This document shows, piece by piece, positions 37,555-43,155 of a stretch of DNA of 64,000 bases (its first letter is position 1; the number at the start of each line of letters is the position of its first letter). The notes beneath the pieces are model-generated. The model did no database searches. It was given only the letters and a program-made list of their open reading frames with translations, and was not told the origin of the DNA. Position numbers and translations under genes: made by a program. Source of the stretch: Egicoccus halophilus (lineage in GTDB: Bacteria; Actinomycetota; Nitriliruptoria; Nitriliruptorales; Nitriliruptoraceae); the NCBI RefSeq assembly GCF_004300825.1, contig NZ_CP036250.1:3545001-3609000 (forward strand), written 5' to 3'.

Positions 37555-37806
37555 ATGGACTGGCGAAGCCGCGCCGCGTGCATCGACGAGGACCCGGAGC
37601 TGTTCTTCCCGATCGGGACGACCGGCCCGGCGGTCGAGCAGGCCGACGCTGCCAAGCGGGTCTGCACCCGTTGTGACGTCCGTGAGCAGTGCCTCGAGAT
37701 GGCACTGAGCACCAACCAGGACGCCGGCATCTGGGGCGGCCTCACCGAGGACGAGCGCCGCACCCTCAAGCGTGCCCGTCAGCGCCGCCGCCGTATGGCG
37801 AGCTGA
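37555..37806 (+). CDS. whiB1: WhiB-family iron-sulfur regulator (WhiB1-like)
   Basis: An 83-residue DNA-binding regulator holding a [4Fe-4S] cluster that responds to NO or redox state. The four cluster cysteines are C9, C37, C40 and C46 (CX2CX5C core), followed by the GIWGG turn (59-63) and an Arg/Lys-rich C-terminal DNA-binding tail. AGGGAG 7 nt before the ATG. Position next to a divergently oriented PdtaS gene is exactly that of mycobacterial whiB1 (Rv3219/Rv3220c). Confidence 0.92.
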   Translation: MDWRSRAACIDEDPELFFPIGTTGPAVEQADAAKRVCTRCDVREQCLEMALSTNQDAGIWGGLTEDERRTLKRARQRRRRMAS

Positions 37807-37960: not shown

Positions 37961-39403
37961 TCAGCGGGGCAGGGGCAGCAGGGACTCGCAGACCGTTCCC
38001 GTCGCGTCGGTGCGTCGGCGCACCTCCAGCGTCCCGCCGAGCTCGGACTCCACCAGGGTCGCGGCGATCCGCAGCCCGAGGTTGGCATCGCGCTCCAGCG
38101 ACCAGCCGTCGGGGACGCCGACGCCGTCGTCACACACCTCCAGGTGCAGACTCGCCGAACGTCGCTCGAGTGCGACGACGATGTCGCCACCGCGGGTCGG
38201 GAACGCGTGCTCGACCGAGTTCTGCAACAGCTCCGAGAGCACCAGGGCGAGCGGGGTGGCCACTTCGGCGGGCAGCTCACCCGCACCGCCGTCCAGCAGC
38301 ATGCGCACGGGCCGCTCCGGATCGGTCAGGCCGGTCGAGAGCATGTCGATCAGCCGCTGCGCGACCTTGTCGAAGCTGACCCGCTGCCGTGAGTCCTGCG
38401 AGAGGGTCTCGTGCACGAGGGCGATCGAGGAGATCCGGCGGACCGACTCCCCCAGCGCGTCGCGGGCCTCGTCGGAGGTCAACCGCCGCGACTGCAGCCG
38501 GAGCAGTGACGCCACCGTCTGCAGATTGTTCTTCACGCGATGGTGGATCTCGCGGATCGTGGCGTCCTTGTAGAGCAGCAATCGCTCGTGACGCCGCAGC
38601 TCGGTGACCTCCCGGATGAGCATCAGGCCCCCCAGGACGTGGTGCTCACGCGTGAGCGGTAGCAGACGCCGCAGGACGACCGCGCCCCTGGCCTCCACCT
38701 CGGACTCGAGCGGTTCCCCGTCCGCCAACGCCTCGAGCACGGCAACGTCGTCGAGGTCGAAGTCCCCGAGGTTGCGGCCCAGGATGTTGTCGACGACCCC
38801 GAGTCGCCGGTAGGCACTGATCGCGTTCGGGGACGCGTAGACGACCGTCCCGCTCGGGTCGACCCGGAGCAGGCCGTCACCGACCCGGGGGGCGAGCTCG
38901 CGTTCGGGGTCCTCGCCGGGGAAGGGGAACGAACCGTCGGCGAGCATGTTGGACAGCTCGTTGGCGACCTGGAGATAGGTCAGCTCGAGCTGGGACGGCG
39001 CGCGCACCATCGAGAGGTTGGCCTCCCGGGTGACCACGGCGATGACCTCGCCCTCGAAGGGGACCGGGATCGCCTCCTCGCGCACCGGCACCCCGGTGGA
39101 CCAGTCCGGCTCGCCGTCACGGACGATCCGTCCGCCGTCGAAGGCGCGCTGGACGGCCGACCGCTCCTGCGGGCCGAAGACGGTCCCGACCAGATCGTCG
39201 TAGTAGATGGTCTGCGCCGTGTAGGGGCGCATCTGCGCCACGACCGTCAGCTCACCGCTGGACGGGTCGCGACAGAACATCAGCAGGTCCGCGAACGACA
39301 GGTCGGCGAGGATCTGCCAGTCGGAGACGATCGCCTGCAGGGTGTCGACCGCGGCGCCGAAGAGGCCACCGTGGTTCTCGACCAGCTCCTGGAGCGACGA
39401 CAC
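37961..39403 (-). CDS. pdtaS: PdtaS-type sensor histidine kinase (GAF-PAS-HisKA_2)
   Basis: A cytosolic 480-residue histidine kinase: an N-terminal GAF-like domain (about 5-150), a PAS domain (about 170-270), then HisKA_2 with EIHHRVKNNLQTV (phospho-His H287/H288) and an HATPase_c domain with N-box LSELLQNSVEHAF and G-box DDGVGVP. No membrane segment. The mycobacterial homologue senses nutrients/NO and signals to PdtaR, an ANTAR antiterminator; no ANTAR regulator is in this window. The GTG start lies 1 nt after the upstream stop. Confidence 0.92.
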   Translation of the reverse strand: MSSLQELVENHGGLFGAAVDTLQAIVSDWQILADLSFADLLMFCRDPSSGELTVVAQMRPYTAQTIYYDDLVGTVFGPQERSAVQRAFDGGRIVRDGEPDWSTGVPVREEAIPVPFEGEVIAVVTREANLSMVRAPSQLELTYLQVANELSNMLADGSFPFPGEDPERELAPRVGDGLLRVDPSGTVVYASPNAISAYRRLGVVDNILGRNLGDFDLDDVAVLEALADGEPLESEVEARGAVVLRRLLPLTREHHVLGGLMLIREVTELRRHERLLLYKDATIREIHHRVKNNLQTVASLLRLQSRRLTSDEARDALGESVRRISSIALVHETLSQDSRQRVSFDKVAQRLIDMLSTGLTDPERPVRMLLDGGAGELPAEVATPLALVLSELLQNSVEHAFPTRGGDIVVALERRSASLHLEVCDDGVGVPDGWSLERDANLGLRIAATLVESELGGTLEVRRRTDATGTVCESLLPLPR

Positions 39404-39404
39404 G

Positions 39405-39851
39405 TCAGCGCGGCAGGAAGCGCTGCAACTGCTGCAGCGGTACGGCTTCGCGGATGTGCTCGAAGGCGCGCTTCTCGATGTCACGGGCCTCGCTCATCGA
39501 CAGCCCCAGGGTGCGGGCGGTGTCGGCGAGGTCGTGCGGGTGCCCGTCGGTCAGCCCCATGCGCAGCTCGAGGACCCGGCGTTGGGTCTCCGGGAGCCGC
39601 TTGAGCACCTTCTCGAGCGGACCGGCGAGCTGACTGACGGTCTCGTTCTCGGTCGGTGCGGAGCGGCCACCGCGGCGGCCGGCGGGGGCGCCGTGACGAC
39701 CCCCCTGCCCACCGGCACCTCCACGCCCGCCTCCGGCACCACCCCGGGCGCCGCCGCGCGTGCCCCCACCACCGCGGGAGGCACCGTCGCCGGCGTTCCG
39801 GCGACCGTTTCGGCCACCGGAACCGGATCCACGCTTCGAGGAATCGTCCAT
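39405..39851 (-). CDS. RGG-rich protein with C-terminal sigma-70 region 4 domain
   Basis: A 148-residue protein of unusual design. Residues 1-65 are disordered, with repeated RGG, GGR and RGGA motifs like eukaryotic RGG boxes. Residues 85-138 match sigma-70 region 4 (LPETQRRVLELRMGL, then a helix-turn-helix ending in ARDIEKRAFEHIR). Regions 1 to 3 are absent, so it is not a normal sigma factor. There is no Shine-Dalgarno; TACCCT 7 nt before the ATG suggests a leaderless mRNA. pdtaS starts 1 nt after the stop, so the two share a transcript. Confidence 0.75.
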   Translation of the reverse strand: MDDSSKRGSGSGGRNGRRNAGDGASRGGGGTRGGARGGAGGGRGGAGGQGGRHGAPAGRRGGRSAPTENETVSQLAGPLEKVLKRLPETQRRVLELRMGLTDGHPHDLADTARTLGLSMSEARDIEKRAFEHIREAVPLQQLQRFLPR

Positions 39852-40000
39852 GCGGGGCAGGGTAGCCGCACCGACCGATGGCCGAGCCGGGCACCGCCAC
39901 CCCGACCATCGGGACGCTGCCGGCGGCTGCGCGCGCTCGCGTGCGCGGCCATGCTGCGGCTCTGCCCGATCGCACGCCGACCCCCGGGGGTATCGCGACC

Positions 40001-40390
40001 ATGCGCCTGCGCCGTTCCCGACTGCTCACCACCTGCGCCGCGGGCCTGCTCCTGGCGGCCTGTTCGGGAGGTCCGGAGGAGACCGACGCCAGCGACGCGC
40101 CACCGCCGCGGGACGACGAGACGGCCGAACAGGACCCGGCTGCGGCCGGCGAGGCCTGCGAGCAGGCGTTCGCCGACGCCGAGACGGCCGAGGACGGGCA
40201 GGCCGCACTGATGGCGGCCGTGGCGGCCTGTGACGACATCGCGTCGTTCACGGCCGCGTCCGCCGAGCACCCCGACGCGCTCGGGGACGTCGAGCCGCAC
40301 GTGTTCCTGGCCGAGGCGTGCGACGACGCGACCGAGCCCGCCGTGAGCGAGAGCCCGTTGTGCGACGAGGTCGCCGGCGAGCAGAACTGA
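40001..40390 (+). CDS. Small secreted lipoprotein of unknown function
   Basis: A 129-residue protein with a lipoprotein signal peptide (MRLRRSRLL, hydrophobic core, lipobox LLAAC with the lipidated Cys at 21). The mature part is short, very acidic and Ala-rich, with five further cysteines including CEQ, CDD and LCDEV segments that could form disulfides. No known domain. The in-frame upstream extension is rejected because the signal peptide fits the ATG at 40001. It is divergent from the RGG-sigma4 gene and convergent with the Xre regulator. Confidence 0.72.
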   Translation: MRLRRSRLLTTCAAGLLLAACSGGPEETDASDAPPPRDDETAEQDPAAAGEACEQAFADAETAEDGQAALMAAVAACDDIASFTAASAEHPDALGDVEPHVFLAEACDDATEPAVSESPLCDEVAGEQN

Positions 40391-40417: not shown

Positions 40418-40879
40418 TCAGGCGTCCTGCAGGACCCCGAGCTCGCGCAGGCGTTCGACCAACTCGTCGGGCGGGACGTCCTGGATGACCGCGAGCGCCC
40501 GCAGGTCGTCGCCGCGGACCGAGAGCACCCGGCGGTTGAAGTCGCCCCGCTGCACCTGGATCGACTCGCAGTAGCGCCGCAACGCCTGCCAGCCGTCGCC
40601 CAGCGCGTCGAGCCGCTCCAGGTCGATCACGAGTCCCGCCGCCTCGTCGGGATGCCGCGGTGGGGCCTCGCCCGGCAGGATCTCGCCCGGCGCGACGCCG
40701 TAGAACTCGGCCAGCTCGAGCAGGCGGGTGGCCGTGATGTTGCGGTCACCGCGCTCGTAGGAGCCGATGACCGCGGCCTTCCACCGGCCGTCGGAGCGGC
40801 GTTCGACGTCCTGCAGTGACAGCCCTCGGTCGATGCGCACACGCCGCAACCGTTCGCCGACCTCGTGGGTGTACGTCAC
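40418..40879 (-). CDS. Xre-family transcriptional regulator
   Basis: A 153-residue protein with an N-terminal helix-turn-helix (about 5-70): VGERLRRVRIDRGLSLQDVERRS, then GSYERGDRNIT and LAEFYGV. This is a conserved actinobacterial BldD-like arrangement. The C-terminal half has a helical region with FNRRVLSVRGDDLRALAVI. GGAGG 5 nt before the GTG start. The target is unknown. It is followed by convergent transcription from the lipoprotein gene. Confidence 0.88.
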   Translation of the reverse strand: MTYTHEVGERLRRVRIDRGLSLQDVERRSDGRWKAAVIGSYERGDRNITATRLLELAEFYGVAPGEILPGEAPPRHPDEAAGLVIDLERLDALGDGWQALRRYCESIQVQRGDFNRRVLSVRGDDLRALAVIQDVPPDELVERLRELGVLQDA

Positions 40880-41994: not shown

Positions 41995-42258
41995 TCAGCG
42001 CTCGTCGTCGACGGTGGCGAGGTGCTCACGGATGCGCACGAGCAGCGACGGCGGCGGGGCGTCGACGCAGTCACGGCGCACGATCGCGCGCAACTGCTCC
42101 TCGAACGATGCCCGATCGGTACAGGGATAGCAGGCCACCAGGTGGGTCTTGATCTGCTCGAGCGTCGTGTCGGGGAGCTCGCCGTCGAGATAGCGCTCGA
42201 GCTGTGCGAGCGCCTCCTGGCACGGCGCGCCGCAGTCGGGGACGTTGCCGGCACTCAC
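41995..42258 (-). CDS. rsrA: Zinc-binding anti-sigma factor (RsrA/RshA family)
   Basis: An 87-residue redox-sensing anti-sigma factor. The zinc motif HX3CX2C is present as H39, C43 and C46, with further cysteines at C9 and C13 near the N-terminus. On oxidation a disulfide forms, zinc is lost and the sigma factor is freed (known for RsrA). The GTG start overlaps the sigma gene stop (GTGA), the typical coupled pair. The family is linked to mycothiol-based thiol homeostasis in actinobacteria. Confidence 0.92.
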
Positions 42259-42899
42259 GCGTCCACCTCCGCTTCGTCGATCAGGCCCCGCTGGAGGGCG
42301 TAGCCGGACAACGCCCGCTGCAGTTGTTTCCTTCCCCGGTGCAGTCGCGACATCACCGTGCCGACCGGGGTGTCCATGATCTCGGCGATGTCCTTGTAGG
42401 CGAAGCCCTCGACGTCGGCGAGGTACACGGCGAGCCGGAAGGTCTCGGGCAGGTCCGCCAGCGCCTGCTTGACCTCGTCCGCCGTCAGCGACTCGAGCAC
42501 CTCGCGTTCGGCGGAGCGTCCGCCCGAACGCGCGATCTCGTCGTAGAACGAGTAGTCCTCCAGCGTCTCCTGCAGGTCCTCCTGCGGCCGACGCTGGGCC
42601 TTGCGGTACATCGAGATGTAGGTGGTGTGCAGCACCCGGTACAGCCAGGCCTTGAGGTTGGTGCCCGGCCGGTACTGGTGGAACGAGCGGTAGGCCTTGA
42701 CCACCGTCTCCTGCACCAGGTCCTCAGCGTCGGCCCCGTTGCGGGTGTAGCGGAGCGCGGCCGAGTACAGCCGGTCGAGGTGCGGCAGGACCTCGGACTC
42801 GAAGCGCTCCCGGCGCTCGCTCTCCGACAGTTCGGCGCGGGCGATCGAGCCGTCGGCCTGCCGGCCGTCGCCGATCTCGGCAGCGGGGAGATCACTCAC
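42255..42899 (-). CDS. sigR: ECF sigma factor SigR/SigH (thiol-oxidative stress)
   Basis: A 214-residue ECF sigma factor. Region 2 contains [34 protein letters not shown] and region 4 has [26 protein letters not shown] followed by [14 protein letters not shown]. The [13 protein letters not shown]-like linker is specific to the SigR/SigH group. It controls thioredoxin, mycothiol and protease genes in relatives. The GTG at 42899 is chosen although AGGAG is 11 nt away; an upstream in-frame start is possible. I did not find the GGAAT-N18-GTT autoregulatory promoter nearby. Confidence 0.92.
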
Positions 42900-43155
42900 G
42901 CGCGACGGCGCTCCTGCGACGGGGTACGCCAGCGTAACGCGGGTCGGGTGACGACTGGCCACGACCGCCGGGTACCACGGCGGTTCTCGATGTCACATCG
43001 GTCCTCTTCACATCTTTTCGCGTCTTTTCGTTGCCATCCATCGCTCCCCCGCCTACGTTGTCCTCGCCCCGACGGCGGCCCGGTGCGGGCGTCGCGTCGC
43101 CCCCACCGACGCCCGCACCAGACGCCGTGCCGGCGCGACGAGGAGGCCTGCACCG

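Follow-up and report, generated by a model that had tools for sequence, protein, structure and literature searches.

The locus and its genes

The window (the whole 64,000-nucleotide stretch of DNA that was analyzed) comes from the genome of Egicoccus halophilus, a single contig of 3.98 Mb. On its minus strand it carries a gene for a small protein with a sigma region 4 domain, referred to here as the lone sigma-4 protein. This gene, its parts, and the neighbors that matter for its interpretation are as follows.

39405..39851, minus strand: coding sequence of the lone sigma region 4 protein, 148 amino acids (Pfam match, orthologs, dN/dS)
39651..39851, minus strand: variable Gly/Arg-rich N-terminal tail, residues 1 to 67 (predicted to be disordered in the structure model)
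39411..39650, minus strand: conserved sigma region 4 core, residues 68 to 147, with five predicted helices (alignment A1, structure model, fold matches)
39444..39497, minus strand: degenerate recognition helix H4, residues 119 to 136 (−35-reading residues replaced; helix limits taken from the model)
39859..39864, minus strand: TACCCT, a −10-like box of the form TANNNT, 7 nt before the ATG (box in 53/57 orthologs)
37961..39403, minus strand: PdtaS-type histidine kinase (GAF_PdtaS at 169.9 bits, HisKA_2, HATPase; GTG start)
37555..37806, plus strand: WhiB1-like Wbl protein, convergent neighbor (Whib at 93.3 bits; W3, F17, F18, and W60 present)
40418..40879, minus strand: BldD-like regulator, neighbor in part of the class (NCBIfam BldD at 180.6 bits, under the cutoff of 250; synteny)
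41995..42258, minus strand: RsrA-like zinc anti-sigma factor, conserved neighbor (zf-HC2; synteny)
42255..42962, minus strand: SigH/SigR-type ECF sigma factor, conserved neighbor (TIGR02947 at 260 bits, above cutoff; synteny)

The Pfam family Sigma70_r4 (PF04545) matches residues 82 to 135 of the lone sigma-4 protein with 39.3 bits against a cutoff of 24.1. No other Pfam family scores above its cutoff, and region 2 and region 3 give no match, which bears out the description in the earlier note of a sigma-70 region 4 standing alone without regions 1 to 3. The best NCBIfam matches are RpoD/SigA-type sigma factors, with scores far under their cutoffs. Elsewhere in the same genome, the stretch L163 (548-1261, minus strand) holds an ECF-like frame in which region 2 occurs without a recognizable region 4 and which may be a broken gene.

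Conservation and distribution

Orthologs of the lone core (at least 58 bits) were found in 59 of 66 genomes of the Nitriliruptoria-type class to which the window belongs; in the remaining seven, matches occurred solely in frames of sigma-factor size. We do not find it convincing that those seven genomes have truly lost the gene. A pdtaS gene could be located in five of them, and in three of these five it lies at, or at most 56 bases from, the end of the stretch. In the two short stretches where pdtaS is away from the ends (L169 and L171), no sigma-4 gene was seen. Among 396 genomes sampled from the phylum, the core reaches at least 110 bits in 36 of the 39 that belong to the class, and no match among the 357 genomes outside the class exceeds 64.4 bits; among the outside matches listed, for which frame sizes are known, the smallest frame is 257 amino acids. 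A set of 43 loci with a core match, one of them weak, belongs mainly to Nitriliruptoraceae, Nitriliruptorales, Egibacteraceae, and Euzebyaceae, and includes one isolate, Salsipaludibacter albus.

Fifty-seven orthologs, with start codons picked by eye, were used for comparisons of whole proteins, two of the 59 loci having been dropped as ending within the gene. Their lengths run from 89 to 186 amino acids, and nothing but a low-complexity tail precedes the core. A tree of 58 of the 59 cores and 21 sigma region 4 sequences separates the two groups with support of 100/100; it is built on 81 columns, and we therefore use this split alone and leave aside the branching within the lone-core family. 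Core dN/dS values of 0 to 0.11 across 14 pairs indicate that the lone sigma-4 homologs of the class are under purifying selection. The earlier note had allowed for a truncated sigma factor pseudogene, should homologs prove to be full sigma factors lacking the RGG region. The 59 stand-alone orthologs and the dN/dS values rule this out: the class homologs are not truncated sigma factors.

Origins outside the chromosome were also considered and rejected. Among viral sequences, 47 stretches fit a pattern and none was confirmed as a relative; one unannotated phage record reached 35% identity. Four plasmid records matched, every one of them annotated as a sigma factor.

A TANNNT box ending 5 to 10 nt before a start codon is present in 53 of the 57 orthologs (44 with the start as chosen, 9 with an alternative start 9 or 12 nt further on), against 33 of 1,120 random ATGs from the same loci (at most 20 per locus, with no alternative starts allowed). 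Such a box would suit a leaderless transcript as its −10 element and supports the start codons used.

The core domain

The structure model, made with 21 ortholog rows, predicts five helices over residues 68 to 145, with a pLDDT of about 90 in most of the core. Among the best 50 matches of the fold search, the core pairs with region 4 of Thermus sigma A (VIA Z of 11.3, root mean square deviation of 3.5 Å, 83 residues) and with 1rio_H (Z of 9.6, 1.2 Å over 61 residues); gp33 is not among these 50, to which we attach no weight. The closest solved sequences are those of Mycobacterium tuberculosis SigA region 4 in complexes with WhiB proteins.

Alignment A1 contains 38 of the 59 cores, chosen for spread. 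For residue comparisons, all 59 were set against 21 sigma region 4 sequences, a reference set of mixed RpoD-type groups comprising 20 picked from genomes of the class and M. tuberculosis SigA. In E. coli numbering, the Arg at 554, R584, E585, and Q589 are present in 21/21 sigma sequences and lost from 59/59 lone cores, and R586, an Arg in the sigma sequences, has become Glu in every lone core. These five positions we take to be the −35-reading residues of sigma region 4. Judged by its sequence, then, the lone sigma-4 protein is not a sigma factor of the sigma-70 family, because region 2 and the −35-reading residues are both absent; what it shares with that family is the fold and sequence of region 4. 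Position 589 in the lone cores is acidic in 33/59, basic in 26/59, and never Gln, and this acidic/basic switch spans the class. Arg or Lys is kept at R588 in 56/59 lone cores, and Arg stands at 593 in all 59. The window core has a net charge of 0, and the charges of the lone cores overlap those of sigma region 4. Given R588 and this sigma-like charge, some contact of the core with DNA is possible.

According to a review (PMC2988021), sigma contacts the β flap through H1, H2, and H5 and their surroundings. Helices 1 and 5 retain their hydrophobic positions in at least 57/59 lone cores, and helix 2 does so in at least 53/59, a conservation that is suggestive and no proof of flap binding, because the same positions largely form the core of the domain.

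The N-terminal tail

The tail of the window protein contains 28 Gly and 12 Arg among its 67 residues. It has five RGG triplets against 2.1 expected when those residues are shuffled (P = 0.024), so RGG is just mildly above what composition would give. Mean pLDDT is 46 to 57 in seven blocks covering residues 1 to 70 of the model. The earlier note had raised the question of whether the RGG segment varies in length, and it does: with the tail limit set 18 residues before the LP motif, tails range from 8 to 105 residues across orthologs, and their charge ranges from −2 to +17. A limit 12 residues before that motif served in a separate count. The 30 tails from the window's family are 37% Gly, 15% Arg, 9% Gln, and 8.5% Lys. 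Together they hold 40 RGG triplets against 26.2 expected by composition, and 10 of the 30 have none. The 27 tails from outside the family have a median length of 15, and 24 of them are without RGG.

In total, 34 of 57 orthologs lack RGG. Several have GQGGK repeats in its place, and GGK/GQ repeats are common substitutes. Because length varies, RGG is often missing, and GQGGK repeats can replace it, what has been conserved amounts to no more than a disordered tail, basic and rich in Gly, and this in just part of the class. The repeats reported in the earlier note are thus real in the window, where all five RGG triplets stand, but they lie near the level set by composition and are missing from most orthologs. 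Its suggestion of an RNA-binding or condensation role through RGG is accordingly weak for so variable a tail. Conserved RGG repeats of the kind expected in an RGG-box RNA-binding protein were not found, and the data do not support a eukaryotic-type RGG region as a defining property of the lone sigma-4 protein.

Two orthologs distant from the window's family (L050 and L052) also have longer Gly/Arg/Lys-rich tails, which points to more than one origin of such tails.

The gene neighborhood

Across 59 loci of unequal length, many of them too short for the full gene set, a class-wide gene order recurs: sigH, rsrA, galE, in some bldD, then the sigma-4 gene and pdtaS. Beyond pdtaS, on the opposite strand, whiB and a diacylglycerol kinase-like gene follow recurrently. 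A neighborhood of WhiB1, PdtaS, and SigH is known in mycobacteria. In the window, the C-terminal part of the BldD-like protein (40418-40879, minus strand) contains RGD-x8-RGDD, which we take to fit the cyclic di-GMP motif of BldD, RxD-x8-RxxD. Between the bldD-like gene and the sigma-4 gene, on the plus strand, lies a short frame (40002-40390, within the open reading frame 39878-40390) that resembles a small lipoprotein, with a segment ending in LLLAACSGG.

The GTG start of the kinase gene lies 1 nt past the stop of the sigma-4 gene in the window, a distance that makes co-transcription of the two plausible. By gaps extrapolated from tblastn ends, the interval from sigma-4 stop to pdtaS start measures between −1 and 10 nt for 29 of the 31 orthologs from the window's order; among the 26 other members of the class, pdtaS lies at most 400 nt away in 9, lies 1.5 to 3.1 kb away in 13, and is absent from the stretch read in 4. 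The putative co-transcription with a PdtaS-type kinase that the earlier note described is therefore backed by tight spacing just in the window's order. In two stretches examined, the intervening gene was recognized by eye as an amidase-like cell wall protein. The earlier note had also pointed to other actinobacteria as a place where sigma-4-only proteins might sit by pdtaS, and no counterpart was found in the sample read: none of 30 pdtaS stretches from two other actinobacterial classes (15 of the 26 matching genomes in one and 15 of the 19 in the other) has a lone sigma-4 gene. One of the 30, L193, carries within its first 515 bases a frame that runs off the end of the stretch and reads as a sigma factor extending beyond region 4.

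A candidate DNA-blind mimic on the β flap

In the lone core, the fold and the hydrophobic positions of the flap-contacting helices are kept and the DNA-reading residues are lost, which is the pattern expected of a flap-bound mimic of sigma region 4. Our best explanation, which we hold tentatively and at somewhat less than an even chance, is that the protein is a host-encoded sigma-4 mimic that docks on the β flap of RNA polymerase in the manner of phage T4 gp33, an idea drawn from the residue pattern and from analogy. The flap, which the earlier note had named as a possible binding site, is still the most probable one. The core would dock there, either replacing sigma factor region 4 or competing with it, and once docked it could alter transcription without reading DNA, as gp33 does. 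The tail, if it takes the place of the sigma region 3.2 linker, would be close to the RNA exit channel and to upstream DNA, where its basic, Gly-rich sequence could contribute nonspecific contact with nucleic acid; such contact would be accessory, because many orthologs are short tailed. A link to PdtaS signaling may also be supposed. Against this explanation, H5 is remodeled, with R603 replaced by Pro in 58/59 lone cores, and the Phe or Tyr with which H2 ends in 21/21 sigma sequences has given way to Met or Thr in 59/59.

A more specific version seems possible but rather doubtful to us: that the protein is a core chromosomal, class-wide, DNA-blind substitute for region 4 and a cellular counterpart of gp33, which from its seat on the flap frees the polymerase from −35 recognition or joins it in elongation, its basic tail placed where the RNA leaves the enzyme.

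Other explanations have to be weighed. The protein could serve as a decoy for, or a partner of, regulators that recognize sigma region 4, such as Wbl proteins or anti-sigma factors, either titrating them off the housekeeping sigma factor or receiving them. The WhiB1-like gene and the sigH-rsrA pair at the locus are in keeping with this, as is the likeness of the core to SigA in WhiB complexes, and the neighboring Wbl protein retains W3, F17, F18, and W60 in 24/24 loci. Yet a Wbl protein that has kept these residues looks suited to the housekeeping sigma factor instead. Moreover, H516 of M. tuberculosis SigA is needed for WhiB3 binding, the H516A substitution abolishing the complex, by the passages cited from PMC10245118. 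The lone cores have no His at the equivalent position, which is Glu in 58/59 and Gln in 1/59, and the Pro that follows is lost from all 59. Also, the core is RpoD-like, whereas RsrA-type anti-sigma factors act on ECF sigma factors. We regard a decoy role as unlikely.

The helix-turn-helix of sigma region 4, whose fold is retained in the model and the fold match, might otherwise have been retuned to other sites, making the protein an ordinary repressor or activator. The basic residues at 588 and 593 would suit such a regulator, and a basic tail could raise its affinity. The DNA face, however, has the invariant Glu at 586 and an acidic residue at 589 in 33/59, the window core carries no net charge, and the alternation of acidic and basic residues at 589 across the class is unlike a conserved DNA reader. 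This, too, we think has a low probability.

Less probable again is a role as adaptor in the PdtaS-PdtaR (ANTAR) pathway, with signaling proteins as the target in place of RNA polymerase. The near contact of the two genes in 29/31 members of the order and the six ANTAR matches in the genome argue for it; against it, 17 of the 26 members of the class outside the order have pdtaS more than 1.5 kb off or missing from the stretch, and the sigma-4 gene has its own promoter-like box.

Two readings retain very little probability. Two-part sigma factors are known (parts of PMC10141391 and PMC2988020), and the protein might be half of one, with region 2 supplied separately as in SigO-RsoA or T4 gp55-gp33, but 20 of the 22 region-2 matches in the window's genome share a frame with region 4, the other two are a frame with a divergent region 4 by eye and a broken-looking ECF gene, and no RpoD-type, region-2-only partner was seen among the 22. 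As scarcely credible is a protein that binds RNA or forms condensates through an RGG box of the eukaryotic kind, given that, for all the RGG excess in the window and its family, most orthologs lack RGG and the tail shrinks to 8 amino acids while the core stays conserved.

To return to the flap-bound mimic, phages are known to redirect RNA polymerase with DNA-blind mimics of sigma region 4. If the present proposal is right, it would suggest that bacteria apply phage-type sigma-4 mimicry to their own polymerase, nature would offer a tool that separates flap binding from −35 recognition, and the WhiB1-PdtaS-SigH neighborhood would have an extra player. No paper on the lone sigma-4 protein was found among the openly licensed PMC papers listed, and its class-wide conservation, together with the loss of the DNA-reading residues and the variable tail, points to a polymerase regulator not described so far.

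Comparison with known systems

Region 4 of the group 1 and group 2 RpoD/SigA factors has the same fold as the lone core and detectable homology with it; the lone core differs in having no regions 1 to 3 and in the loss, in 59/59, of residues for DNA reading and Wbl docking. Bacillus subtilis SigO-RsoA, as presented in the cited part of PMC10141391, resembles the present case in placing sigma domains on separate polypeptides, but here no region-2 partner was found in the window's genome. T4 AsiA is, in the passages cited from PMC6755090, a functional mimic of sigma region 4 that contacts the flap tip helix; in the same account it differs in being without sequence homology to sigma region 4 and in acting by binding and remodeling that region.

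The precedent is T4 gp33, a late transcription coactivator. The cited part of PMC2988020 describes it as a sigma-4 mimic that binds the flap tip with no DNA sequence recognition and whose N-proximal third is highly variable; in the lone sigma-4 protein the base-reading residues are lost. Both proteins are small, have a variable N-terminal part, and mimic sigma region 4, by proposal in our case. A difference is that gp33 is phage encoded and without discernible sequence similarity to sigma, whereas the lone sigma-4 protein is chromosomal, clearly resembles RpoD region 4 in sequence, and is conserved in a bacterial class. Flap binding has been demonstrated for gp33 (PMC2988020, same part) and is predicted from sequence for its candidate cellular counterpart.
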